NCBI RefSeq assembly: GCF_001506075.1
Contig: NZ_KQ947475.1
Coordinates: forward strand, 62,001-126,000
Source of the DNA: Vibrio sp. MEBiC08052
GTDB taxonomy: Bacteria; Pseudomonadota; Gammaproteobacteria; Enterobacterales; Vibrionaceae
Direction of reading: 5' to 3'
Length of the DNA: 64,000 bases
Shown: positions 941 to 62,266 of the stretch, in pieces
Layout of the letters: each line of letters begins with the position of its first letter
Numbering within the stretch: position 1 is the stretch's first letter
Program-made: the position numbers and the translations under genes
The notes under the pieces: model-generated
Seen by the model: the letters and a program-made list of their open reading frames with translations, nothing else
Told to the model about the DNA's origin: nothing
Database searches by the model: none

Positions 941-1687
941 CTATATCAGTGCCATTTCCAGTTTATGTTTGCGTTTCACCCAATCTGGTAAAGAGCGTTC
1001 GAGTAAGCGATAAAACTCTGGGCCGTGGTTGTGGTGCTCAAGGTGACACAGTTCATGAATGATCACATACTCGATACACTCTTTCGGTGCCTTAATTAGG
1101 TCCCGGTTTAAAGTCAGTGTTCCGCTTTTAGATAGGCTGCCCCAGCGCTTTTTGAGTTGCATAATTTTAATGGTTGGCTTGTTGGTATCTGAATGTTTGA
1201 GTTTCTTCCAACAATCCGAAAATACTCTATTTAAATGAAAATCGGCTTTTTCTCGATACCAGTTACTGAGTAGAGACTCAACATGGTCAGGTTTACCACA
1301 AGTAGACGTCACCCAAAAAAAGCCAGCTTTCAGCGCCACACCGTTGTCAGTACCTACTTCAATTTTTAGTCGATACTTTTTGCCTAGATACAAATGGCTT
1401 TCACCACTCACGTATTTGCGAGAAGGGGTTCTTGGGTCAAACTGGTCAAAGTAGCGAATTTGACGTTTGATCCACCGAGCACGTTTTTTAACCTTGGCTT
1501 CAATCGCGTCGCGACCGGTGCCTTCAGGGGCTTTAACAAAAACAGATTGATCAGGGTGAACCGATATTTCCAGCGACTTGCGTTTAGAAAAAGTCAGCTG
1601 GAAGGGGATTTCTCCCCCTCCATACACAACGACTAGCTTTTCAGCGCTTGCCGGAAGCGTCTCGGCTTGCTTGATGATTGACAACAT
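941..1687 (-). CDS. YgjP-like (DUF45, M48-related) zinc metallopeptidase
   Basis: A 248-residue protein with the zinc signature HELCH at about residues 211-215 and a third histidine six residues on (HNHGPEFY), the hallmark of the DUF45/YgjP family, with WYREKA and KKRWGS also typical. Relatives often sit next to type I restriction genes; the substrate is unknown. The start is the ATG at 1687, which overlaps the hsdR stop as TGATG and has GGAGG nine bases upstream inside hsdR. The TTG three bases earlier is less likely. It is the last gene of the hsd operon, so translational coupling to hsdR is likely. No secretion signal is seen, so it is probably cytoplasmic. Confidence 0.85.
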   Translation of the reverse strand: MLSIIKQAETLPASAEKLVVVYGGGEIPFQLTFSKRKSLEISVHPDQSVFVKAPEGTGRDAIEAKVKKRARWIKRQIRYFDQFDPRTPSRKYVSGESHLYLGKKYRLKIEVGTDNGVALKAGFFWVTSTCGKPDHVESLLSNWYREKADFHLNRVFSDCWKKLKHSDTNKPTIKIMQLKKRWGSLSKSGTLTLNRDLIKAPKECIEYVIIHELCHLEHHNHGPEFYRLLERSLPDWVKRKHKLEMALI

Positions 1688-4600
1688 CAATAGTGCCTCC
1701 GGTGTTTCGCAACCTGCATCGTTTTCTCAATGATTTCGTCCATTTGCTCTAAACTCAGCGTCACACCGTACTGTTCTTTGACTTCATCATAAAGAAAATC
1801 GTCAATATCATTCATCGCCGTTTTTTGAACGTCGGCATCGTCCCAAAAATCGACCTTCCAATGAGCATCAATGATTTTTTGTATCGCCAATGATGTTTGT
1901 GCGGCAATCGCATCTAGCTGAACATCGTCTAACTCGTTGAGTGTTGCCACTTGCTGGAACTGCGGTTTAATCAAGCCAAAGTAGGCACACGCTTCGTCGT
2001 TTTCACGAATGCAATCAGGCATATCATCATGCTGTTTAGTGGCAACCTTGTTACGAATATCAATCACTCGGTTGAGATATTCTAAGTCTGATATGCGCTT
2101 AGCTTTAAAGTCATCAATAGCGGCTTGGATCAACTTAGAAAATTTCTCATAAAACGCAGGATCTTCGTCCATATTCTCCGAAATACTACGCTTTGTGGCA
2201 TGGGCGATGGTGTCCGCTTTTGACGCCGTGGTTTTGGTTTGATAAACCCCTTGCTCTTCTTTCACGGCGGTAAACATTTTTTCATCAAACATATTCACCG
2301 GCTCGTTAAGCTGAGTCACCTCATTGGCCTGAATATGTGTATCCAGCAGTTTTTTAATTTTCGGCTCGTAGTCGCGATAATCAATGGCCTCGGCGTAACG
2401 CAACTTAACCGCCGCCTTTAAGTTCTGAAAACGTTTTAAATCGTTTTTATAGGTTTGTAGCTTCTTCTCATCAGAGTTCATAATGAACTGCTCAGACGAT
2501 AAAGCGATTGCCAGAGATTTACTGTACACCGATAAGCATTCATAAAACTCTTCACGCAATTCGTCATCCGCCAGTAACACCTCATAGGCTTCTTCGTCTT
2601 TTGAGTTTTTAACGGCTTTAAACAGATCCCATAAATCAGAGTAGCGTTGTGGCAGTTTAAACACTTCTTCGTTGATTGACGTCAACGTGCCCGCTAAGTC
2701 ATCTTCGTCAAACCCTTCAAAGGCTTCATACATGGTTAGGGCTTTATCCAGCTCGCCCAATACACTGGCATAGTCGATGATATAGCCAAACTCTTTGCCT
2801 TCGTACAGGCGGTTAACCCGAGCAATAGCCTGTAGTAGCGTGTGCTCTCGCAGGGTTCGACATAGGTACAGCACGGTGTTGCGCGGTGCATCAAAACCGG
2901 TTAATAGCTTATCCACCACAATGAGTATTTCAGGGTCATCACCGTATTTAAACTGGTTGATGATTTGTTTGGTGTACTCTTCTTCAGAGCCAAAGCGCTT
3001 CATCATTTTGTCCCAGAATTTACCTACTTCGTCGGTTGGTCCTTCGTCCACTTCATCGTGGCCTTCACGGGTATCGGGGCCAGAAATCACTACCTCTGTG
3101 GTGACGGTGCCAATTTCATGCAGAAATTGCTGGTACTTTAATGCAGCCTGTTTGCCTGGGGCGACCAGCTGAGCCTTTAAGCCGGTGCCTTGCCAGTTAG
3201 CACGAAAATGCTCGCTGATATCAAAGGCGCGCATATATATCACTTGATCAGCTTTGTTTAGCATTTCAGCGCGGGCGTATTTCTTTTTCAGGTCGGCCTT
3301 TTGCTCTTTGCTTAAATCAGCGGTGTGGCGCTCAAACCATAGGTCGATAGCCGACTGATTCTGTTCCATCTCAACATGTCGGCCTTCGTACAGTAGTGGC
3401 AATACGGCTTCGTCGGCAACCGCTTGTTTAATGGTGTAGTGCGGCTCAATCAGGCCACCAAATTTGGCAAAGTTATTCTTTTCTTTTTTCAGCAGCGGTG
3501 TACCGGTAAAGCCAAGAAAGCACGCATTCGGCAACATTTGGCGCATTCTGGCCGCCAACGAACCAAAGTTGGTACGGTGGCTTTCATCGACCAGTACAAA
3601 TATATCGTGCGACTCATCGACAAACTTCTCAGCAATCCAGCCTTTATCAAATCTGTGAATCAGCGTGGTGATCAACCCCACTTTGTTCTTTAGGTGTTTT
3701 ACCAAGTTTCGGCCAGAAGTTGCAGATTCACGGCTTAAACCGCAGGCTGTAAAGGTGTTAGCAAGCTGCTTATCGAGATCAATCCTATCGGTAACTAAAA
3801 TAATCCTTGGATTGATCAATTGTGAATCAAGCGCCATGGTGCGGGTGAGCATCACCATGGTGAGCGATTTACCCGAGCCTTGGGTATGCCAAATAACACC
3901 ACCTTGGCGCTTATCTTTAGCGCTTTTTCTTTTGATGCGGGCGATGGTCGCTTTAATCACAAAATATTGTTGATAGCGCGCCACTTTCTTAATGCCACCA
4001 TCAAACAGGGTAAAGCGATACACCAAATCTAATAAACGCTCCGGGCGGCACAGGCTGTGAATGGCATTGTCTTGCTCTGTCACCAAGCGTTTGCCTTCAG
4101 CCTCTAGCGCATCAAAAAACGGCCGTGCGGCGGCAAATTTGCCACTAAATAACAGCGTTTTAGTGTCTTCGTCTAAGGTGGTATTCACGCCTTTATCGAC
4201 ATCGGCAGGCTTATCTTCCTGCTCCTTCCACACGCCCCAGAACTTCTTAGGCGTACCTGCTGTGGCATATTGGGCGGCGTTTTTATTCACCGCCAATACT
4301 TGCTGCACATAGGTAAACAGGCGCGGAATATAGTCATCGCCCTGGTTGCGAATATTTTGCGATATGGCTTGTTCTACATCCACTTTTGGTGATTTGCATT
4401 CAATCACACTAAACGGAATACCATTGACGAACAACACAATATCCGGGCGTATAGTTTCCGTGCTGCGCGCCCGCTCGACAGAGAACTCCGCTACTACATG
4501 AAAGCTGTTATTGCTTGGGTTTTTCCAATCAATGTAATTGAGGGTAAAACTTTTTGAGTCCCCCTCAATGGTTTGCTCCATGGCTGAGCCTAAGGTGATT

Positions 4601-4935
4601 AAATCGTAAATCGACTCATTGGTTTTTTGCAGGCCATCAAACTTGATATTTTTCAGCTTTTGGATCGCGGTTTGGATGTTCTCCTCGCTAAACAGATACT
4701 CGCCACCTTTATAGTTAATGCGGTTGATCTTTTTTAGCTGCTGGCGAAGTATCCCTTCCAAAATTACATTGGCACTGCGCCCACCCCGTTCAGCCAATGC
4801 TTGCTCTGGAGTAAGGTATTCGTAACCCAAATTAATTAGCTGTTGCAGGGCAGGAATTTGCGACAAGTACTTTTCGTTAAACTCAAAGCCCGAAGGCTCC
4901 GAATTGACATCGTAGTTTACCGGAGGTGTGCTCAT
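1687..4935 (-). CDS. hsdR: Type I restriction enzyme, R (motor/nuclease) subunit
   Basis: This 1082-residue protein cleaves DNA after ATP-driven translocation, as part of the HsdR2M2S complex. Visible order: an N-terminal nuclease of PD-(D/E)xK type (Asp165, then Glu179-Cys-Lys181); a superfamily 2 helicase with Walker A (TQGSGKS at about 351-357), a DESH box (450-453) and GFTGTP (475-480); then RVNRLY of motif VI; then a long helical C-terminus that in the family contacts the methylase. Length is normal and no break is seen. The ATG overlaps the hsdS stop by four bases (ATGA), so the two are probably translationally coupled. Confidence 0.97.
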   Translation of the reverse strand: MSTPPVNYDVNSEPSGFEFNEKYLSQIPALQQLINLGYEYLTPEQALAERGGRSANVILEGILRQQLKKINRINYKGGEYLFSEENIQTAIQKLKNIKFDGLQKTNESIYDLITLGSAMEQTIEGDSKSFTLNYIDWKNPSNNSFHVVAEFSVERARSTETIRPDIVLFVNGIPFSVIECKSPKVDVEQAISQNIRNQGDDYIPRLFTYVQQVLAVNKNAAQYATAGTPKKFWGVWKEQEDKPADVDKGVNTTLDEDTKTLLFSGKFAAARPFFDALEAEGKRLVTEQDNAIHSLCRPERLLDLVYRFTLFDGGIKKVARYQQYFVIKATIARIKRKSAKDKRQGGVIWHTQGSGKSLTMVMLTRTMALDSQLINPRIILVTDRIDLDKQLANTFTACGLSRESATSGRNLVKHLKNKVGLITTLIHRFDKGWIAEKFVDESHDIFVLVDESHRTNFGSLAARMRQMLPNACFLGFTGTPLLKKEKNNFAKFGGLIEPHYTIKQAVADEAVLPLLYEGRHVEMEQNQSAIDLWFERHTADLSKEQKADLKKKYARAEMLNKADQVIYMRAFDISEHFRANWQGTGLKAQLVAPGKQAALKYQQFLHEIGTVTTEVVISGPDTREGHDEVDEGPTDEVGKFWDKMMKRFGSEEEYTKQIINQFKYGDDPEILIVVDKLLTGFDAPRNTVLYLCRTLREHTLLQAIARVNRLYEGKEFGYIIDYASVLGELDKALTMYEAFEGFDEDDLAGTLTSINEEVFKLPQRYSDLWDLFKAVKNSKDEEAYEVLLADDELREEFYECLSVYSKSLAIALSSEQFIMNSDEKKLQTYKNDLKRFQNLKAAVKLRYAEAIDYRDYEPKIKKLLDTHIQANEVTQLNEPVNMFDEKMFTAVKEEQGVYQTKTTASKADTIAHATKRSISENMDEDPAFYEKFSKLIQAAIDDFKAKRISDLEYLNRVIDIRNKVATKQHDDMPDCIRENDEACAYFGLIKPQFQQVATLNELDDVQLDAIAAQTSLAIQKIIDAHWKVDFWDDADVQKTAMNDIDDFLYDEVKEQYGVTLSLEQMDEIIEKTMQVAKHRRHY

Positions 4936-6173
4936 GCGATAGCCTCCCGAAGTTCTCCCTCAGCGACAGACTGGGTACTGCTAACTTGCCAAGCACCCGT
5001 GAGCAGTTTTTGCATCAGGCCGCGTTTTTGGATGCGGTATTTTTCAGCTAATAGCTTTAATCCATCTATCTCTTTCTCCGCCAGAGATAATATATTTGCT
5101 ATATCGTTTTGTTCCTCTAAATTTGGCAAGCCTATCAGTGAGTTCGAAAGCCACTCCATGTCGAGATTTCTTCTTACAATACTGGCACCCTGTATTGAAG
5201 AGTCCAAAAGTATTTTTGTCATGTAATGGCTTCTAATGAAGAACCTTAAGTAGTCTCTATTGTAAGGTCCTTCATTTAATTTAAACGTTTTGTATGCGGG
5301 GGAAACTATTCCTGTGTCCCTTATAGTTTGAAAGTCGATAGCTCCCATCCAGAAATTAAGCCCACTCATAACCAGCGTATATTTATCGACAATTAAATAT
5401 TTACTCTTATCTTTGCTTGCAACCTCTTTGTTAAAGTATTCGCTCTGGCTGACAATACCGTCTTTTGTGACTGATAGAACTTCGTAGTCAGCACATGATG
5501 TGTTTACTTTCTTAAACAATGAGAAAATAGAGCCAAATGCCGTTGGAATGCTTTTTCCTGTGAACCCAAACGATTTCTTTCTCTTTGATAGTAAGTTTGT
5601 GCACAACCACTCAAACTGCTTTTCCTTAGCCGCAATTAACGCCTCCGTTTTTTCGATGGCGTTGTCCCATTCAGACAAAATCCTAGAAATCTTCCTCTGC
5701 TCATCTATTAGTGGTAGCGGCACAAGCTCTTTTTTAAGATTTTTACCACTAATTACAGGAACAGCTCCGCTGTTACAAAATCGACCAAGATCTTGAAACT
5801 CAAACCAGTAATAGAGGTACTCAAAATAGCACTTCTCCTCATCGGTAACAGTTATCACTATGACGTTGTCGTCTGTTACACAATCTTCGGTGAGGAGGAG
5901 TTTATTATTTAATTTTAAGGCAGCTCCTACCCTAGGAAAAACAATACTGTTTGCGGGAAATGGAGTAGCCTTAATTTTTTCTAGAACATCATCATCTACA
6001 TAGTTTTTAGTTCTATAGACATACTTTTTGTTACCCAAAGAGTTTAAGTCTGCAACTTTCACATACATCCATTTACCTTCAGCATTACCTTGGTAGGAGC
6101 GGCTAAATGTATATCCCTGCTTGATTGTCACTAAAGAACCGAGAGGAGACTCTGAGACTGGAGCTTTACTCAT
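4932..6173 (-). CDS. hsdS: Type I restriction-modification specificity subunit
   Basis: A 413-residue S subunit with the usual two half-repeats. Each has a variable target recognition domain followed by a conserved helix (DEQRKISRILSEWDNAIEKTE near the middle, EEQNDIANILSLAEKEI at the end). Each half reads one part of a bipartite target, and the two helices act as the spacer ruler. The target sequence cannot be predicted by eye. The ATG overlaps the dinD stop and the stop overlaps hsdR, fixing it in the operon. The coding strand is more AT-rich than hsdM and hsdR, which fits the known rapid exchange of recognition domains. Confidence 0.95.
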   Translation of the reverse strand: MSKAPVSESPLGSLVTIKQGYTFSRSYQGNAEGKWMYVKVADLNSLGNKKYVYRTKNYVDDDVLEKIKATPFPANSIVFPRVGAALKLNNKLLLTEDCVTDDNVIVITVTDEEKCYFEYLYYWFEFQDLGRFCNSGAVPVISGKNLKKELVPLPLIDEQRKISRILSEWDNAIEKTEALIAAKEKQFEWLCTNLLSKRKKSFGFTGKSIPTAFGSIFSLFKKVNTSCADYEVLSVTKDGIVSQSEYFNKEVASKDKSKYLIVDKYTLVMSGLNFWMGAIDFQTIRDTGIVSPAYKTFKLNEGPYNRDYLRFFIRSHYMTKILLDSSIQGASIVRRNLDMEWLSNSLIGLPNLEEQNDIANILSLAEKEIDGLKLLAEKYRIQKRGLMQKLLTGAWQVSSTQSVAEGELREAIA

Positions 6174-7015
6174 TGATCACCCTCCAACTTTTTCTGCGCA
6201 CGCGCCAACTGGGGAATGCCTTTTTCGGGCGTTGGCAAATCCTCTGGCATGGTGCCCCCCAGTTCTTCAATGGTGGCACGCACTTTGGCACCCACTTCAA
6301 AATGGGTTTGGTTGGCATGGGCTTTATTACTGACTTGATCGCGCTTTAGCTTCTCTTCTGTTTGCGTGGCACGGAACAGGTTGGCGGCCAGTTCGGTACT
6401 ACCCATATGGTCGAGGATTTTCTGGCTCTTTTTTAAGCCTTTGTGTTGGTGAATGGCTTTGTTGTCTAACCCGCCATACAAGCCTTTATAGCCATGGTTT
6501 TGGAAAATGGCGTAGTCCAAGCCAGACTCAACCCCCGCACCACGGGCCGCCGCAGCCAGTTGCTTGTTGTGGTCGGCTAATTCATTGCGCAGCATTAAGC
6601 GTTTTTGGTCTTCATTTAGTTGCTGAAAACCAGTGTCATCCTGTAGCTCTTGGCGACGAGTCTGAATGGCAAAATAGGTCTGGCCATTGGCGATTATAGG
6701 CTTACGGACATCGCCGTTTTGCACAATGAGGTAACAGGCATAGCGTGACAAGGCAAACGAGTCCATTTTGCGCTGGGCACCTGAGCCAATTTCGACCATC
6801 TCGTGGATCTCCACGAAATGGTCGGCCACCGCTTGGCCGCTGTTTTCACAGGCTTTTTTGGCTTTCTCGATAACCGGCAAAAAGTTACGGAACTCGGCAT
6901 AGTCCAATACCTTCGCCAACTGGCGTGCCAGCCAAACTTCGCCGCCTTGTTCATTAATCACGCGAATGCTTTCAAAGCTGGTGTGTTCTGGTTGGGTAAG
7001 CTGCTTGTCACTCAT
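6170..7015 (-). CDS. dinD: DinD-like DNA damage-inducible protein inside the hsd operon
   Basis: 281 residues matching the DinD family: an N-terminal BRO-N-like region (GGEVWLARQLAKVLDYAEFRNF) followed by a DinD-specific helical part with MDSFALSRYACYLIVQNGD. In Escherichia coli DinD is LexA-controlled and inhibits RecA strand exchange; whether this copy does so is inference. The start is supported by GGAGG six bases upstream, within the preceding 36-aa ORF, whose TGA overlaps this ATG. The stop overlaps hsdS by four bases. No LexA box is possible directly upstream because it lies within the operon, so it probably follows hsdM expression rather than SOS. Confidence 0.9.
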   Translation of the reverse strand: MSDKQLTQPEHTSFESIRVINEQGGEVWLARQLAKVLDYAEFRNFLPVIEKAKKACENSGQAVADHFVEIHEMVEIGSGAQRKMDSFALSRYACYLIVQNGDVRKPIIANGQTYFAIQTRRQELQDDTGFQQLNEDQKRLMLRNELADHNKQLAAAARGAGVESGLDYAIFQNHGYKGLYGGLDNKAIHQHKGLKKSQKILDHMGSTELAANLFRATQTEEKLKRDQVSNKAHANQTHFEVGAKVRATIEELGGTMPEDLPTPEKGIPQLARAQKKLEGDQ

Positions 7016-7122
7016 CGCATACCTCCTACCATTTTCGTGACGTCACGTAATTGGTTAGCTGTGTCGTACTCAGGCTCAGATACCATTTTGTTGGCGTCAA
7101 CAAATTGGTTGTTGTTTGTCAT
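7012..7122 (-). CDS. 36-residue ORF with an internal duplication, between hsdM and dinD
   Basis: This short frame starts two bases after the hsdM stop and its TGA overlaps the dinD ATG, the same spacing pattern as the other operon joints. A GGAGG lies 13 bases before the ATG, within the end of hsdM. The product is polar and contains two copies of one unit: NQFVDANKMV and NQLRDVTKMV, with matching DNA repeats. No family is recognised. It could be a genuine small subunit or regulator, or a leader that couples dinD to hsdM translation. Tight packing supports translation; function is unknown. Confidence 0.6.
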   Translation of the reverse strand: MTNNNQFVDANKMVSEPEYDTANQLRDVTKMVGGMR

Positions 7123-7124
7123 AC

Positions 7125-8771
7125 TCACTCAGCCACCTCCGTTGTGTTGCTTTGCGCCTCGTTAGGCACGATATCCTTTAACAGCGCTGCCATTTTGCTG
7201 CGAACGTCGGCGAGTTCGGTTTCAAGGGTGGTAATTTCCGCCTGTACCGCCACAATATCTACTTCAATTTCTTCTTCGAAGGTATCGACGTAGCGCGGGA
7301 TATTCAGGTTAAAGTCGTTCTCTTTGATCTCGTCAAAGGTGGCTAAATGGGCGTATTTTTCTACCTCTTCACGGGCTGTTACCGCCGCAACAATTTTGTC
7401 TAAGTGCTCATCCAGTAGGATGTTTTGGTTTTTACCAGGTTGGTAATGGTCTTTACCGCTGGCATCGACAAACAGCACGTCTTTGCGGTTTTCATTGGCA
7501 CCGCCTTTTTCACGCGAGCGGTCAAATATCAGAATTGCCACAGGAATGCCGGTGCTTGGGAATAAGTTACCAGGTAAACCAATCACGGCATCCAGTAGGT
7601 TTTCTTCAATCAGTTGTTGGCGAATACGGCCTTCTGCCGCGCCTCTAAACAGCACGCCATGAGGCACCACTACGGCAATGCGGCCTTCTTTTTCAACGGC
7701 GGCTTCAACCATGTGGCTGATAAAGGCAAAGTCGGCTTTTGACTTAGGTGGTAGCCCACGCCAGTAGCGGTTGTATCTGTCTGCTTCAACGTCTTCTGAC
7801 CCCCATTTGTCGAGTGAAAACGGTGGGTTGGCAACCACGTTATCAAACTTCATCAGTCGGTCGTTTTCGACCAAGGCTGGTGAGGTAAGGGTGTTACACC
7901 ATTCAATGCGAGCAGAGTCTGAACCGTGCAAGAACATATTCATACGTGCAAGCGCCCAAGTGCTGCCGTTGACTTCCATGCCATAGAGTGAGTAATTGCG
8001 ATCGCCCACTTGACGTGCGGCTTCAATCAATAGCCCGGCTGAGCCACAGGCAGGGTCACAAATACGCGCCCCTGACTTTGGCGCAGACAGTCGCGCGACC
8101 AGCTCAGAGACTTTATGGGGAGTGTAGAATTCACCTGCTTTTTTACCTGCATCGGAGCCAAAGCGCTCAATAAGGTAGATGTAGGTGTTACCAATCACAT
8201 CTTCAGACACGCGCGACGGGCTCATGTCGAGAGCGGGCTTGTTGAAATCGTCCAGCAAGGTTTTTAGGCGGCGGTTACGGTCTTTGGTTTTACCCAAGTT
8301 GGCTTCGCTGTTGAAATCGATATTACGGAACACGCCTTCTAACTTGGCTTTGTTCGCGGTTTCAATATGCTCTAAAACAATGTTGATCAGCTCGCCAATG
8401 TTTGGTTCGTTTTTACGCTCTAACAATGAATAGTAGTTGGCCAAAAAGGTGTCGGTAACGACGGTTTTCTTCTCTTTGGTCGCTGGGTCTACAACTTCTT
8501 CTGTAAGTTCTACCATTGGCAGTACAAAGCGCTCGCGCTCAAGCTTACGTATGATACGGACGTCGTCGTCACCGTACTGTTTTTTATATTCTTCGTAGTG
8601 GTCATTCCATACATCGGAGATGTATTTTACGAACAGCATTACTAGGATGTAGTCTTTGTATTGCGCCGGGTCTACCGCGCCACGGAAAGTATCGCATGCA
8701 GCCCATGCTGCATTGTTGATGTCTTTTTGTTGAATTTTATCGCTCATGCTTTTGTTCATGCTGTTATTCAT
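7125..8771 (-). CDS. hsdM: Type I restriction-modification DNA methyltransferase (M subunit)
   Basis: 548 residues. An N-terminal helical domain is followed by GEFYTP (about 213-218), the SAM-binding motif DPACGSAGLL (from 239) and the N6-adenine catalytic motif NPPF (315-318), then a C-terminal coiled segment that holds HsdS. It methylates the host site and forms the core of the restriction complex. The first ATG at 8771 is preferred because GAGGG lies seven bases upstream; internal Met codons at residues 5 and 9 are alternatives. It heads the run hsdM, small ORF, dinD, hsdS, hsdR, ygjP-like. Length and motifs look intact. Confidence 0.96.
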   Translation of the reverse strand: MNNSMNKSMSDKIQQKDINNAAWAACDTFRGAVDPAQYKDYILVMLFVKYISDVWNDHYEEYKKQYGDDDVRIIRKLERERFVLPMVELTEEVVDPATKEKKTVVTDTFLANYYSLLERKNEPNIGELINIVLEHIETANKAKLEGVFRNIDFNSEANLGKTKDRNRRLKTLLDDFNKPALDMSPSRVSEDVIGNTYIYLIERFGSDAGKKAGEFYTPHKVSELVARLSAPKSGARICDPACGSAGLLIEAARQVGDRNYSLYGMEVNGSTWALARMNMFLHGSDSARIEWCNTLTSPALVENDRLMKFDNVVANPPFSLDKWGSEDVEADRYNRYWRGLPPKSKADFAFISHMVEAAVEKEGRIAVVVPHGVLFRGAAEGRIRQQLIEENLLDAVIGLPGNLFPSTGIPVAILIFDRSREKGGANENRKDVLFVDASGKDHYQPGKNQNILLDEHLDKIVAAVTAREEVEKYAHLATFDEIKENDFNLNIPRYVDTFEEEIEVDIVAVQAEITTLETELADVRSKMAALLKDIVPNEAQSNTTEVAE

Positions 8772-8854: not shown

Positions 8855-9085
8855 TTAGGAATCGAGTACGGCTGATTGAGTCCATGTAATCGACCGCCCA
8901 AATGGAGGGTAAATCGATGTATTGTCTTTTACGGTGTACCGTGCAATGACTTCACCTTGCTCGTTTAGCTCTTCACATTCATAGGCATCAGTGTCTTGGC
9001 CTTTTCGTTGCGACCACTGACTACTTACGATGTTGAGGGTATGCGATTCAGGTAACCCTATTTTCTTTTTGTATTCATCACTCAT
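8855..9085 (-). CDS. Hypothetical 76-residue protein upstream of hsdM
   Basis: A small, charged, soluble protein (starts MSDEYKKKIGLPESH, ends SAVLDS). Central residues ECEELNEQGEVIARYTVKDNTS suggest a short beta-rich fold, but no family is recognised. The start at 9085 has an AGG-type site nearby (AAGGATAGTTGCCCTT lies just upstream), and the gene sits eight bases after the DUF2188 gene, so the two are probably co-transcribed. The 83-base gap to hsdM contains inverted repeats and may separate it from the restriction operon. Confidence 0.65.
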   Translation of the reverse strand: MSDEYKKKIGLPESHTLNIVSSQWSQRKGQDTDAYECEELNEQGEVIARYTVKDNTSIYPPFGRSITWTQSAVLDS

Positions 9086-9093
9086 AAGGGCAA

Positions 9094-9339
9094 CTATCCT
9101 TTAATATCTTTCGGGTCATTGCCGTGGCTATCCTTGCGTTGTATCTGGCCGTCTTTGCCATGTACAACTAGCTCAGAGCCTTCGCGCTTGCTTTGTTCGC
9201 GTGCTGCAGCTTCGGCCTCTCGTTTGGTGCTGTGTACGCTTGAAGCACGTTCTGCACCGCCTTTTTTGTTCGCCCATCCATCAGGATGTGGTACGACATG
9301 TCGGGTGTTGCCCTTGCTTGATGATGTATTCTTTGCCAT
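9094..9339 (-). CDS. DUF2188-family small protein
   Basis: 81 residues, rich in Lys, Ser, Gly and Ala. The pattern HVVPHPDGWANKKGGAERASSVHSTKREAEAAAREQSKREGSELVVHGKDGQIQRKDSHG, taken in pieces, is the classic DUF2188 layout: an HVVP start, a central helix of AxxxAxxxA type, and an ELVVHGKDGxIQ end. The family has no established function; members are common next to restriction-modification and other accessory genes. It lies eight bases before the 76-aa gene and after the single-TRD S-like gene on the same strand, so all three may form one transcript. Confidence 0.8.
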   Translation of the reverse strand: MAKNTSSSKGNTRHVVPHPDGWANKKGGAERASSVHSTKREAEAAAREQSKREGSELVVHGKDGQIQRKDSHGNDPKDIKG

Positions 9340-9418: not shown

Positions 9419-9442
9419 ACCCAGTAACTGTCATTACTGGGT
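9419..9442 (-). terminator. Hairpin overlapping the stop of the orphan S-subunit gene
   Basis: ACCCAGTAA (9419-9427) and TTACTGGGT (9434-9442) form a perfect 9-bp stem with a 6-base loop. On the minus strand the stem contains the TAA stop and is followed by only a short TTTAG, so it is a weak terminator candidate or a transcript-end stabiliser. Confidence 0.4.
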
Positions 9443-10012
9443 ATTCACTGCTAAATTCATTAATACTGCGTCAGTTAACACCTCCTTTTTCTTTGCCAAT
9501 GCGTTCATTAGCTTCTGCTCGTTGATGGATAATTGGTAAATCTCAATGATCTTTTTTTGCACATTGAGACTAGGGACTACTATCTCCAGATCCTCAAGTG
9601 CAGGTTTGCCAATCATTCTTACTGCTGTTCCTGTTGCCTTACTTTGTAATACTGCTTGTGAAGTCGGTTGATTAATAAACCAACATAGATACGCTGGCAT
9701 AACCAAGTTACTTTCAACCCGAATTCGCAACAGTGGCGCAGCGATAACAGCATCGCTCAATTCTTGGTCAATCAATGCTACCGTATTGGTTTGACCTCTA
9801 GAGCGAAATGCTAAGTCGTTATGTTTAACTCTGTGATGATCCTTTAAGTCCTGCATAGCAATCTGCACTAGCTCTTGGGCATTTAGTCGGTTATCTTCAG
9901 TAAGGTCCTTCATCTGGATAACAGAGATATTTCCATTAGCGTCTGGCTCAAGCTTTGACCTAAAAGAGTGTCCCATCTGTACAGAGGCAATTTTTTTCAA
10001 ATTAACTTTCAT
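9434..10012 (-). CDS. Orphan single-domain type I S-subunit-like protein
   Basis: 192 residues with one target recognition domain-like unit: an N-terminal KKIASVQMGHSFRSK, a variable centre with RSRGQTNTVAL, and the S-subunit signature GTAVRMIGKPALEDLEIVVPSL followed by the conserved helix VQKKIIEIYQL. Full S subunits carry two such units, so this is a half-size form. It could pair with itself or with HsdM to give a different specificity, or be a stand-alone DNA reader; both are inference. The start at 10012 is chosen over 10087 because GAGGT lies five bases before it. A 12-bp inverted repeat lies upstream. Confidence 0.75.
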   Translation of the reverse strand: MKVNLKKIASVQMGHSFRSKLEPDANGNISVIQMKDLTEDNRLNAQELVQIAMQDLKDHHRVKHNDLAFRSRGQTNTVALIDQELSDAVIAAPLLRIRVESNLVMPAYLCWFINQPTSQAVLQSKATGTAVRMIGKPALEDLEIVVPSLNVQKKIIEIYQLSINEQKLMNALAKKKEVLTDAVLMNLAVNTQ

Positions 10013-10030
10013 TGTTACCTCAAATGCGTT

Positions 10031-10114
10031 GTAATGGCGTTTCTGCAACTTGGTGAACAGTGTAAGCAGGCATCCAAAACCTGTCAACTATTTATTTTGA
10101 AAAAACGCCATTAC
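10031..10114. repeat. 12-bp perfect inverted repeat upstream of the orphan S gene
   Basis: GTAATGGCGTTT at 10031-10042 is matched by its reverse complement AAACGCCATTAC at 10103-10114. The first copy is 19 bases before the orphan S-subunit ATG. The spacing (60 bases between arms) suits a two-site operator. The GGCGTTT core recurs in the noncoding stretch before the XRE gene at 11.5 kb. Confidence 0.6.
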
Positions 10115-11590: not shown

Positions 11591-12643
11591 ATGATTGGAG
11601 AGCGCATAAAACGAGCCCGTGCTGCCGCTGGCCTGTCGATGCAGGCCTTGGGTGAGCAGGTTGGTATTAGTGCCAACATGGTTAAAAAATACGAGCACGA
11701 CCAGAGTATGCCTTCGTCGGGGGTTTTACTTAAATTGGCGACGGCTTTGTCGGTTCGTACTGAATACTTCTTTCGCCCAGCACAGGTGACTTTGGGTGAG
11801 GTGGAGTATCGTAAGAAAGCCTCAGCTTCAGCTAAGTTGCTAAAGAAGATTGAGTCCGATGTGGTTGACCAAGCTGAGCGCTGGTTAGCACTTAAAAATG
11901 TGTGGCCAAACTTCCCGATAGCGAGTTTTAACTACCACCCCGACGTTCCTGTTGTAAGCACTTTGGACGCGGTAGAACAGCTTGCCGCTAAAGTCCGTAC
12001 TGATTGGCAGTTGGGTATGAATCCATTACCAGACTTAATCGACTTGCTTGAGTCTAAAGGTATTCTGGTGATTGTCAGTAACGTACCCCAAGCCGATAAA
12101 TTTGATGGGTTACAAGCCAAAATATCAGGACAGCCAATTGTTGTCGTGTCTTCTCATTGGCCTGGTTGCCGCCAGCGGTTCACATTGGCGCATGAACTTG
12201 GCCACCTTGTTTTACATGGCTTACTAGATGAATCCATTGACGAAGAGATGGCCTGCAACCGCTTTGCTTCTGCGTTTTTACTGCCCGAAGTAGGGCTTTT
12301 TCAGCATCTAGGAGAGCGACGTTCAAACATAGATCCCAAAGAGCTGTATTTTCTGAAACATGAATATGGCCTAAGCATGGCAGCTTGTTTGTATCGTAGT
12401 GCCGACCTTGGTGTGATCACCGAAGAGAAAAAACGCCAAATATTTATACAGTTCTCAAAAAACGGTTGGCGAAAGCAAGAACCTGGGAATCCTTATCCAC
12501 AAGAACAGACATTATTGTTTGATCAGTTGGTTTATCGTGCATTGGCAGAGGGAATTGTTAGTGAATCGAAAGCCGCTGAACTGTTACAGATGTCAGTGAT
12601 GGCATTGCATAAGCAGCGTCAAATGTTGGCTGAGGCGGTGTAA
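11591..12643 (+). CDS. XRE helix-turn-helix plus ImmA/IrrE metallopeptidase, antitoxin-like
   Basis: 350 residues. Residues 1-62 are a Cro/CI-type HTH (GERIKRARAAAGLSMQALGEQVGIS). Residues about 150-240 are an ImmA/IrrE (COG2856) domain with HELGH at 201-205 and a following DEEMACNRFASAFLLP that supplies the third ligand. A C-terminal helical region follows. Proteins of this kind are repressors or antitoxins that may be inactivated by, or carry out, proteolysis. The stop abuts the ATG of a PIN gene (TAAATG), the arrangement of a toxin-antitoxin pair. AGAGGT four bases before the ATG supports the start. A palindrome overlaps the promoter, suggesting autoregulation. Confidence 0.88.
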   Translation: MIGERIKRARAAAGLSMQALGEQVGISANMVKKYEHDQSMPSSGVLLKLATALSVRTEYFFRPAQVTLGEVEYRKKASASAKLLKKIESDVVDQAERWLALKNVWPNFPIASFNYHPDVPVVSTLDAVEQLAAKVRTDWQLGMNPLPDLIDLLESKGILVIVSNVPQADKFDGLQAKISGQPIVVVSSHWPGCRQRFTLAHELGHLVLHGLLDESIDEEMACNRFASAFLLPEVGLFQHLGERRSNIDPKELYFLKHEYGLSMAACLYRSADLGVITEEKKRQIFIQFSKNGWRKQEPGNPYPQEQTLLFDQLVYRALAEGIVSESKAAELLQMSVMALHKQRQMLAEAV

Positions 12644-13123
12644 ATGTATTTGTTGATCAGTGATGCCAATATTCTCATTGATCTCGAAGAAGGCCAATTA
12701 TTAGAAGTCTTTTTCAATTTGCCGTACCAGTTCAAAGTTCCAGATGTGTTATTCCACGAGGAGCTAAGCGATCAACATGGCTATTTAATCGAGTTAGGCT
12801 TGTTGTTGGGTGAGTTAAGTCCTGAGTCTATGATGTACTCATTTGAACTGAGGCAAAAGTATGCTGGCCCTAGCATGAACGATTGCTTTGCGCTTGCGCT
12901 GGCGAAACAAGAACAGTGTCCACTGCTAACTGGGGATATGGCGCTTAGAAAAGCAGCTGAAAAAGAAGCGATATTGGTTCAAGGTACGCTATGGGTTGTC
13001 GAGCAGCTCGTTACCCATGGTGTATTGTCAGTTGAAGAAGCCCAAGCTGCCTATGATAAAATGGCAAAAGCAGGTCGTCGCTTACCTTGGGCGCTTGCAA
13101 AACAGCGTTTATCTCAATTATAA
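12644..13123 (+). CDS. PIN-domain protein, probable toxin RNase of the XRE-ImmA pair
   Basis: 159 residues with a PIN-like start (LISDANILIDLEEG) and spaced acidic residues expected for a metal-dependent RNase: Asp7, Glu39 or Glu40, Asp80 (in SMNDCFALALAK) and Asp98 (in LLTGDMALRKAA). PIN toxins cut tRNA, rRNA or mRNA; the target here is unknown. The gene begins immediately after the XRE-ImmA stop, with no spacer, so translation is probably coupled. The C-terminal 40 residues (from about 115) lie beyond the core fold. The pair could be addiction/defence or simply an island regulator; all four acidic positions are present, so activity is plausible. Confidence 0.82.
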   Translation: MYLLISDANILIDLEEGQLLEVFFNLPYQFKVPDVLFHEELSDQHGYLIELGLLLGELSPESMMYSFELRQKYAGPSMNDCFALALAKQEQCPLLTGDMALRKAAEKEAILVQGTLWVVEQLVTHGVLSVEEAQAAYDKMAKAGRRLPWALAKQRLSQL

Positions 13124-13595: not shown

Positions 13596-14863
13596 TCAGC
13601 ACCCTCCTGTTTTGTGTTGTGAAGAGGGCTCAAAGTTCACCTGTGGTTCGACCACATCAGCCACGGTCTGATGAGCAATACGACGCTCTTCAAAGTAATC
13701 GTGTCGGTCGTAGATGCCCTCAACGCCTTTTAGCTTATGGTTAAGACAGCGTTCGGCCACGTTGCCTGCAATGCCCAATGAGGCGGCAAGGCTGCGAAAG
13801 GTGCGGCGTAAATCGTGTACGGTGAAGTGTTCGAGTTTACCCATTTTATTGGGTGGCTGTTTTTTGCGCCCAGGCTCGCGACCAAATAGCTTACAAATGG
13901 CGCGGTTCAGTGTATCTGGCCCCATATGAGGACGATGGCTTGTTCGTCTGGCTGGGAAAACATAGGGCGAGCCACAAGCACGGATTTGCAGTTCGTTGAA
14001 CCAAGTAATGGCTTGGCGCGGTAAGGGAATGCTAATTGGTACGCCGGTTTTGCTGCGTTCTTTGGGCAGATCCCACACGCCTGTGGTTAAATCCATTTCA
14101 CGCCACATGGCTTCACACAGTTCGCTTTTGCGCACGCCCAATACAAAAAACAGACAGCAAGCTAGGTAGTTGTCGCGGCCAAAGCTGTTGATATGAGTAT
14201 GAAACACGCTAAAGGCGTAGTGAATTTCCTCTTTGCTGAGCATCCTGTCTTTACTGGACTCCACGCCTCCGGCATCGTCCACGGTAAATGCGGCAGCAGG
14301 GTTGTTCAGGGTTAAATCGAGCTTAATCGCATGTCGAAACAGCTGCTTCATGTACATCAAGGTGTCGTTAGCAATGGTAGGGCGGTTACTTTCTCGGATG
14401 CGTTCTAATACTTCGCGCACGTCGTGTGCGGTCACTTCGGCAATACATTTAATGCCAATAACTGGGCTTATCTCTTTGGTGTAAACCCGATACGGAATCT
14501 TTGGGTGCTTGAGTCGTCGGCTCAGGTCGGTTCGATACCAGTCATGGAACAGTTGATCGACGGTTTCAATGTCAGATAACTCGATTTTCTGTTTCTCCAG
14601 AAGAGGATCTATGCCGCCTCATACTTCTTTTCGAAAATATGCGGCGGCACTTTTTCTGGAATAGGTGGCGGCGTCCGCCAGCAACATTAAAGGAAATTGC
14701 CTCAAGGTTGCTTCTCGCCTTCTTTTGGCTGTGTGGTGTAGCGGATCATCCAATAAGGCGAGCCCTGTTTGCGGACGCAAAAGTATAGCCCTTCACCGTC
14801 TGAATATTTTTTTGGGTCGGCTTTGCTGTATGCAATAACCTGTTTTGCTGTGAGTTTTCCCAT
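13596..14863 (-). pseudogene. Tyrosine recombinase (island integrase 1), frameshifted and with an in-frame stop
   Basis: The N-terminal DUF4102-type arm-binding part begins at the ATG at 14863 (MGKLTAKQVIAYSKADPKK) and stops at 14702. The frame then shifts: RQFPLMLLADA continues in another frame until a TGA at 14619-14621, after which GGIDPLLEKQ and the whole core follow to 13596. The catalytic half is intact: Arg in LGVRKSEL, HDLRRT, and the Tyr in GIYDRHDY. An intact gene would encode about 420 residues. The longest surviving product starts at a GTG at 14435 (279 aa) and lacks the arm-binding domain. It is clearly related to the integrase at 18877-20122. Confidence 0.85.
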
Positions 14864-15107
14864 GTTTACTCCATAGTTGCTGAAATAATGGAGGGGGCAA
14901 TAATGGCTGCCCACCACCGATTTGATTATTGAATCAGCAGCTAACCTGTTGTGGTGACGAGTTAAATGCGAAAATTGGGCAACTTACGGCTCACCAATTT
15001 GCTCACCGCAAAACGCTTATTGAGCCAAAATGAGGGGGCTGCCCACCATTCTGCTCATCACTAAACAGGTAGTTGGTAACGGACATCTGTAAACCGATTT
15101 GGGCGGG
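14864..15107. repeat. Upstream region of integrase 1 with direct repeats
   Basis: GGCTGCCCACCA occurs at 14905-14916 and again at 15037-15048, both preceded by a GAGGGGG tract. GGCTCACCA near 14988 and GCTCACC near 15001 are looser copies. These could be arm-type integrase or excisionase sites, or part of an attachment region. No gene is visible. Confidence 0.45.
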
Positions 15108-61854: not shown

Positions 61855-62266
61855 TAACATGTGAGTATAAATTTGGTTGATATTAGTTTAAATAATATTT
61901 TTAGTTAAAAATATTCTAGAATTAAAATAAATTACTAATTCTCATTTCTCTATATATTATTATATAGCTAATTTTTTCTGAAAAATATGTAGACAACATT
62001 GTAAAGAAAAACGTGATATTGATTGTAAGTACTGAATATTATGTTTGATTTATGTTTTCATTAATTCAAAATATTACAGAAATTAGTATGAATTTTATAT
62101 TCAATAAATAATCAAGTAATAGTTCGGTGTTAATGCTATTTATTAGCTCAGCTAAATATGACTGAGATATGAAACAAGATCTTTTCTTCAAGCTTAAGCG
62201 AGATAGCGTAGTCCACAGATCTAAATAGATTTAATAAACAAAGCCATTAGGAAATGGAGAACACTA
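61855..62266. other. 412-base AT-rich gap inside the O-antigen operon
   Basis: No gene is seen. GGAAATGGAGAACACT before the ddhA ATG provides its ribosome binding site. A run of more GC-balanced sequence, starting near 62165 (AAGATCTTTTCTTCAAGC), might hold a promoter, but no consensus boxes are convincing. It could be the scar of a lost gene between ddhD and ddhA. Confidence 0.4.

Follow-up and report, generated by a model that had tools for sequence, protein, structure and literature searches.

Palindromic DNA sites tied to dinD recur in a small open reading frame of a Vibrio type I restriction operon and in phage genomes

Between hsdM and dinD of a type I restriction operon in Vibrio sp. 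MEBiC08052 lies a small ORF with two copies of a 28-bp DNA palindrome, and a third copy lies within the coding sequence of dinD. Comparison of dinD genes demonstrated a family of such sites, tied to dinD and kept at the DNA level as a near-strict dyad symmetry. We named it the “dinD palindrome”, defined as a 28-bp dyad ACCATTT...AAATGGT with paired inner arms. The site looks like a portable protein-binding site, beyond a repeated peptide. We give a probability of about one half to the reading that these are binding sites of a dimeric protein, most likely DinD, enclosed by a translated bridge ORF controlling dinD, hsdS and hsdR. The window analyzed here is a stretch of 64,000 nucleotides, from position 62,001 to 126,000 of contig NZ_KQ947475.1, and all coordinates refer to it. 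Compared loci are designated with L numbers.

Operon organization

The operon is found on the minus strand, in the order hsdM, small ORF, dinD, hsdS, hsdR and a YgjP-like gene. Neighboring genes overlap or nearly abut throughout, in agreement with the tight joints described in the first-pass annotation. The type I DNA methyltransferase is encoded by hsdM (7125–8771, PF02384 and PF12161), the specificity subunit by hsdS (4932–6173, PF01420) and the restriction subunit by hsdR (1687–4935, PF04313 and PF18766). The dinD gene (6170–7015, minus strand) encodes a protein of 281 aa, with a Bro-N domain (PF02498) and a DdrC-like C-terminal domain.

Several other genes were recognized around the operon. 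Two small ORFs preceded hsdM (8855–9339, minus strand), one of them with a DUF2188 domain (PF09954). Upstream of the operon, and separate from hsdS, there was a half-length second ORF similar to a specificity subunit (9434–10087, minus strand; Methylase_S, PF01420, E 1e-9). A gene combining a HTH and an IrrE-like M78 peptidase domain, directly followed by a 159-aa ORF, was found on the plus strand (11591–13123), and the two genes look like a regulatory or toxin-antitoxin-like pair. By eye, two ORFs on the minus strand (13596–14435 and 14702–14917) resembled parts of a tyrosine integrase, apparently split in two. Together with a transposase-like ORF at 379–774, these putative integrase pieces suggest a mobile island.

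The small ORF and its relatives

The small ORF has 38 codons (7012–7128, minus strand). The first-pass annotation had set its start at an ATG (7122–7120) two bases past the hsdM stop (7127–7125), giving the peptide MTNNNQFVDANKMVSEPEYDTANQLRDVTKMVGGMR. The ATG is in place, but the frame already opens at a GTG at 7128. This codon is an ATG in the six other genomes with the same junction, overlaps the hsdM stop and comes six bases after a Shine-Dalgarno-like GGAGGT in the end of hsdM (7135–7140, minus strand), so that a start at 7128 and a product of 38 residues appear likelier. The other end of the ORF was correctly described: its TGA (7014–7012) overlaps the dinD ATG (7015–7013). A second Shine-Dalgarno-like GGAGGT lies within the small ORF, five bases before the dinD ATG (7021–7026, minus strand). 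The duplicated peptide unit is also real (NQFVDANKMV and NQLRDVTKMV, with N, Q, D, K, M and V in common), as are the matching DNA repeats behind it, two 30-nt copies which are 80% identical and 54 nt apart.

The same hsdM-dinD junction was found in seven genomes, including that of the window. These correspond to nine loci, with L005/L026 and L023/L110 counted once each. The six other genomes were from (i) Acinetobacter haemolyticus (L022); (ii) Vibrio salilacus (L023); (iii) Pseudoalteromonas amylolytica (L024); (iv) Marinomonas ostreistagni (L025); (v) a Paraglaciecola MAG (L026); and (vi) Colwellia chukchiensis (L036). Their HsdM proteins were 96.7–97.8% identical to that of the window. When the related operons were checked for stop codons and frameshifts, the frame was open, of equal length and without indels in all seven genomes. 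The overlapping start and stop codons and the Shine-Dalgarno sequence of the small ORF were also kept in 7/7. In a more distant operon (L028, HsdM 92%) the cassette was absent, and the hsdM stop overlapped the dinD start directly.

The variable columns of the small ORF numbered 7, 4 and 14 at codon positions 1, 2 and 3, which is the third-position excess (14/25; hypergeometric P 0.007, with kinship ignored) that had been proposed as a check for coding. Read in frame, pN/pS was 0.29, and the two alternative frames gave 0.99 and 0.79. Based on this moderate evidence, the small ORF is likely translated. For parts of the neighboring genes, pN/pS was 0.05 (hsdM) and 0.04 (dinD). The ratio of the small ORF is six to seven times higher, indicating that its peptide is probably not strongly constrained, and the evidence for a needed peptide is weak. 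All five variable columns inside the two units were third codon positions, consistent with coding and with DNA constraint alike. The idea that third positions vary less within the units was dropped (5/18 inside vs 9/20 outside, P 0.33).

The suggested tblastn search with the 36-residue peptide was abandoned as the main approach. It gave one weak match in plasmids (E 9) and one in phages (E 2, MT839879.1), the latter becoming meaningful later. Among 369 genomes of the class, the only clear match was in the own genome, with two others at E 0.04–0.07.

A pair of palindromes in the small ORF

Each copy of the repeat in the small ORF is a 28-bp DNA palindrome. Palindrome 1 (7082–7109) has 11/12 arm pairs and the core GTTG-ACGC-CAAC, and palindrome 2 (7028–7055) has 10/12 arm pairs and the core CGTG-ACGT-CACG. 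Palindrome 3 (6795–6822), with 11/12 arm pairs, is in the dinD coding sequence, at codons 65–74 (DHFVEIHEMV), whose DNA reads GACCATTTCGTGGAGATCCACGAGATGGTC. All three match the definition of the dinD palindrome. They span 315 bp, and in the whole 64 kb there were just 16 such palindromes (at least 10 of 12 pairs, around a center of 4); this clustering is more than expected by chance.

Unit 1 reads ACCATTTTGTTG-ACGC-CAACAAAATGGT, with all 12 arm pairs formed, in all but one of the six other genomes; in the exception, the Paraglaciecola MAG, it has 11/12, as in the window. Unit 2 has 10 arm pairs, except for 11 in P. amylolytica. A consensus scan of this strand found no sigma-70-like promoter near the pair. 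Of the first-pass reading, the coding part is supported. The repeat, however, belongs mainly to the DNA: it is a pair of palindromes of the dinD type, and the duplication in the peptide results from it.

The palindrome is built into dinD

Codons 65–74 were readable in 102 copies of dinD and dinD-like genes, some genes being counted twice, and L013 and L014, with a gap at the site, being excluded. The window copies (L004, L109, L148) were left out of the palindrome, resampling and synonymous-choice counts. L067 and L095, which have in-frame stops, were excluded from the protein alignment and included in the DNA counts. In the central 28 bp, 96 of the 102 copies had at least 10 of 12 pairs, two had 9, and four had 5 or fewer. 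The mean pairing, over 84 distinct 30-mers, was 11.38 of 13, versus 7.76 after synonymous codon resampling (sd 0.14, maximum 8.12 of 500). The next best position in dinD averaged 5.8 pairs.

Fifteen core types were present among the 96 paired sites, indicating that changes in one arm were repeatedly accompanied by changes in the other. The residues at the site vary (e.g., VEIH, SQVG, EDIL, HQVV, VEFN), with the symmetry kept. Where pairing was lowest (5 or fewer pairs, four genes), the residues at the site are retained and there is no gap. The titles of the dinD loci included Gammaproteobacteria, Bacteroidetes, Firmicutes, Verrucomicrobia and others, with many MAGs. The outermost pair of the 30-mer, pair 1, was unconstrained in dinD (22 to 17). 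For this reason, and because the free phage copies share the same borders, we set the length of the site to 28 bp.

DNA symmetry or RNA hairpin

Arms varying with compensation could also belong to an RNA hairpin in the mRNA, which as a leader, attenuator or processing site would act on the translation of dinD, whose Shine-Dalgarno sequence is directly preceded by the pair in the small ORF. The raw mismatch tally over the 13 pairs leans to RNA, with 40 G-T versus 24 A-C mismatches, or 23 versus 13 without pair 1. The free synonymous choices point toward DNA. At pairs 3–13, third bases facing G or T formed the Watson-Crick pair over G-T in 311/332 cases (160 expected from the usage of the same gene), and those facing A or C formed it over A-C in 223/231 (111 expected). 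Without pair 7, and with pair 1 also out, exceptions were 11/270 for G-T and 8/220 for A-C. Free codon choice avoids G-T nearly as strongly as A-C, unlike in an RNA stem. Giving this more weight than the raw tally, we consider DNA dyad symmetry the likelier constraint. As the free phage copies described below are also placed between genes in all relative orientations, an RNA hairpin is quite improbable.

DinD and its exchangeable Bro-N module

The DinD of the window matched the NCBIfam model NF008573 over residues 4–278 (E 6e-135, 449 bits, for a cut-off of 242). It is a full member of the DinD family, and its coding sequence carries the same kind of palindrome. It also matched the PADLOC candidate defence protein PDC-S13 (PDLC04919, E 3e-119), so that a role in defence is a candidate one. 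In 35 of the 99 listed loci (hand count, window copies excluded), dinD adjoined an hsdM-like gene. DinD is said to inhibit RecA, as described by Uranga in 2011.

The AlphaFold2 model of DinD, made with 75 sequences (the window and 74 of 100 DinD proteins), had a mean pLDDT of 88. A beta-hairpin (strands at residues 67–77 and 80–89) contains most of the palindrome codons in its first strand. The best PDB matches found with Foldseek were DdrC chains. After realignment, the match was limited to the C-terminal domain (residues 133–252; Z 14.1, rmsd 1.9, 114 residues, 20% identity). The likeness to DdrC from Deinococcus radiodurans consists of the C-terminal fold, the dimer named in the PDB titles and the DNA damage response, whereas the match leaves out the N-terminal half.

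In the excerpts of published work, dinD is present in streptococcal islands (PMC4129442, PMC10602874) and serves as an SOS reporter (PMC5350276). The excerpts of open-access DinD literature cite SOS induction and RecA inhibition, and mention no palindrome or DinD binding site. A search of the open-access literature in PubMed Central found nothing on the dinD palindrome.

Across the seven genomes dinD is a mosaic. Nucleotides 49–264 of the gene (6752–6967, minus strand) hold the Bro-N domain and palindrome 3. Compared with the window, they were 95% identical in A. haemolyticus and C. chukchiensis (L022 and L036) and 54–56% identical in the other four genomes (L023–L026), while the rest of dinD was 90–93% identical in all six. 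The only other part as divergent was hsdS, with a nucleotide identity of just 48–51% to the six relatives, for which reason its specificity is probably different from theirs. From this mosaic, the N-terminal module of DinD appears to be swappable like hsdS, and the inner site to move together with this module. Despite the swap, the two sites of the small ORF stayed constant as a pair. It was nearly unchanged under both Bro-N alleles, and its cores match the inner site of neither allele, so that, if DinD reads the core, the pair would not be its own sites.

Copies beside dinD and in other Bro-N genes

We scanned the 1.10 Mb of dinD loci, window included, for 30-nt sites whose ends are CCAT or TCAT. 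There were 93 sites in dinD, 19 outside and none in the reversed sequence, several loci being present more than once. Outside dinD, the copies of this operon family were located upstream of the gene, as were those of L062, L103 and L105, at 27–71 bp from the aligned start, and that of L050, at 208 bp; in L089 the copy was just downstream. The extra copies in L050 and L089 carry the core of the inner site of their own dinD. Of the four genes that lost the inner site, L062, L103 and L105 have the upstream copy and L106 has none; two of the former three are Thiothrix plasmids, and hence they represent two lineages at most.

Among other Bro-N genes, the inner palindrome was absent from 30/30 loci (the best 30, from one order), which rules it out as a general Bro-N property for this set. 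Two of these loci (L321 and L327) had an unrelated palindrome with 11/12 pairs.

Free copies in phages and plasmids

Four core patterns were scanned for in viral contigs. The exact form of unit 1, with one base left open, was found in six stretches, and a looser scan for the unit 1 type gave 41. The unit 2 core was found in 26 stretches, one of them within a dinD gene, and the two other cores in one and none. At E values up to 10, a similarity search with the 30-mer gave matches in 88 phage records and 25 plasmid records, many matches being short or weak and several being in annotated dinD genes. When grouped by their flanks, the 41 and 26 stretches formed 39 sites. Most were intergenic (29/39, versus 6.4 expected from the ORF coverage), and four of the remaining ten were in dinD. 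The 35 groups outside dinD were distributed over the three frames as 17, 15 and 3, without favoring that of dinD; stops are frequent in the third frame. A Bro-N gene was absent from 22/22 viral records with a copy outside dinD, many of which are fragments, and present in 3/3 with a copy in dinD.

Intergenic sites with 10 or 11 of 12 pairs were found in the phage ctl617 and in plasmid records of Vescimonas and Criblamydia, and an Agarilytica plasmid had such a site in a divergent intergenic region. Copies carried by ORFs were found in a 97-aa gene of Javan291, in the DUF551 gene of an Escherichia coli prophage and in a 52-codon ORF of the Bifidobacterium phage PMBT6. In the viral contig L218, a palindrome (~1177) was within a 1175-aa ORF, resembling by eye a cytosine methyltransferase with an intein. 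The Flavobacterium phage FpV9 and the Fusobacterium phage JD-Fnp2 were discarded as carriers of free sites, having partial BLAST matches of 24 nt and no site in the scan.

The phage MT839879.1 (L340) has a 92-codon ORF (1772–2050), following an AAGGAGG, at whose beginning several dinD-type units succeed one another in the dinD frame. Their cores differ; two units were found by BLAST and two more by eye, and in the scan only a single unit of the row reached 10 of 12 pairs. This ORF bears a looser likeness to the small ORF of the window.

Such units in the dinD frame would suit a functional micropeptide, in which the NxxxDxxKMV units act as mimics of the Bro-N beta-strand (residues 65–74 of DinD) that bind or cap this protein, with the DNA symmetry being secondary. 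The palindrome codons start strand E67–77 of the DinD model, both units of the small ORF are in the dinD frame, and its in-frame pN/pS and third-position excess fit a peptide. Further dinD-frame copies were in other phage or prophage ORFs (L150, L154, L155, L170, L172 and L218) and, by coordinate arithmetic, in Javan291, in the Alcaligenes phage CASP1 and in the E. coli DUF551 gene. However, a 192-aa phage ORF (L174) and, by arithmetic, the 52-codon ORF of PMBT6 have the unit in another frame, and the copies outside dinD are mostly intergenic and without preference for the dinD frame. A constraint on the peptide also leaves the synonymous choice in dinD unexplained, and pN/pS is well above that of the neighbors. 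We consider a micropeptide of this kind unlikely. If the palindromes are binding sites, the repeated peptide would be largely a by-product of them, both being in the same frame as in dinD.

Identical 28-mers amid unrelated flanks, some of them in frame within other ORFs, are also reminiscent of self-spreading mobile elements, such as the Rickettsia palindromic elements, and presence in dinD and in this operon would then be due to chance. At one phage gene locus (L156), the site was found in 8 and absent in 72 of the best 80 of 98 relatives. A clean insertion of the 28-mer could not be retained there, the surrounding intergenic DNA being too divergent for an empty site to be recognized. One ORF family (L154) was checked for an empty site, and the codons were present in 3/3 loci, one of which had three changed residues; two were already-known contigs. 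The codons in dinD look ancestral, the four genes with poor pairing having kept their residues without a gap, and at this single orthologous position substitutions in the arms occurred in pairs. In the own genome, a search restricted to unit 1 found no second locus within three mismatches. The latter observations make a mobile element a rather unlikely explanation.

The cores of units 1 and 2 are the common types among free phage sites, and are not that of the resident dinD site, from which a decoy or sensing role becomes possible. The pair would then bind a DinD-like protein of a phage or prophage, and the operon would sense or titrate that protein. Streptococcus marmotae HTS5 is the named host of both Javan290 (L342) and Javan291 (L345). 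The dinD of Javan290, located beside a repressor gene, has an inner site with the unit 2 core, and Javan291 has a site with the same core, with 10/12 pairs, within its 97-aa ORF in the capsid gene region. The units with differing cores in a single ORF of MT839879.1 point in the same direction. Nevertheless, this is a single host example, and four core patterns were scanned; we regard a decoy or sensing role as doubtful.

Discussion

From sequence comparison and modeling, we propose that the palindromes are putative sites for a dimeric protein, most likely DinD, through its Bro-N DNA-binding and DdrC-like C-terminal domains. Occupied sites would act as an operator or roadblock within the operon, and dinD, hsdS and hsdR would be transcribed less, compared with hsdM. 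The 38-codon ORF would serve as a translated bridge. Having finished hsdM, ribosomes would reinitiate at the start codon that overlaps its stop, translate through the 110 bp containing the sites and pass to dinD at the overlapping stop and start codons. Such a bridge would let operator DNA sit mid-way in a tightly coupled operon. Several observations weigh against this proposal, among them the lack of a sigma-70-like promoter in the scan near the sites and the constancy of the pair under both Bro-N alleles. Furthermore, the viral records with a copy outside dinD had no Bro-N protein (22/22, many being fragments), and, in an excerpt of the published work, the best structural match, DdrC, binds DNA without sequence or shape specificity (PMC5436757).

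Taken further, the Bro-N module and its embedded palindrome might form one swappable specificity cassette, so that DinD proteins would have their own DNA address within the codons of their DNA-binding domain. Phages, prophages and restriction operons would then carry matching free copies, either singly or as rows inside small ORFs, serving as operators or decoys in a contest between phage and host. We put this forward tentatively, as a possibility with chances well below even.

The dinD palindrome has likenesses to several known systems. In the C-protein controlled restriction-modification operons, the C-boxes are short symmetric sites adjoining the gene of a small DNA-binding protein. Here, the system is of type I, the protein family is another one, and sites are also found inside the gene of the supposed regulator. 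The LexA box of the SOS response is a site of the type CTGT-N8-ACAG, which the dinD palindrome, by eye, does not resemble. PARCELs, in an excerpt of their description, are palindromic coding elements forming tandem amphipathic domains of 25 residues, often in membrane-targeted proteins (PMC2996958). They share with the dinD palindrome a coding DNA with dyad symmetry, an occurrence in distant taxa and a link with mobile elements. The dinD palindrome differs in being one 10-codon site, at one orthologous place of a gene for a DNA-binding protein, and in having free intergenic copies. The small ORF, with two units at a period of 18 residues, was rejected as a PARCEL, for which that excerpt gives tandem repeats of 25 residues.

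A palindrome kept at the DNA level, with compensating changes inside dinD, is a strong and easily tested clue to the role of DinD. The lone copies in phages link DinD, a PADLOC defence candidate often found beside an hsdM-like gene, to phage biology. DNA sites can be housed in short ORFs that are conserved, and in such cases coding tests alone mislead. If the Bro-N module and its palindrome do form a specificity cassette, this type I restriction operon would respond, through its two phage-type sites, to DinD-like proteins that are either incoming or already resident.
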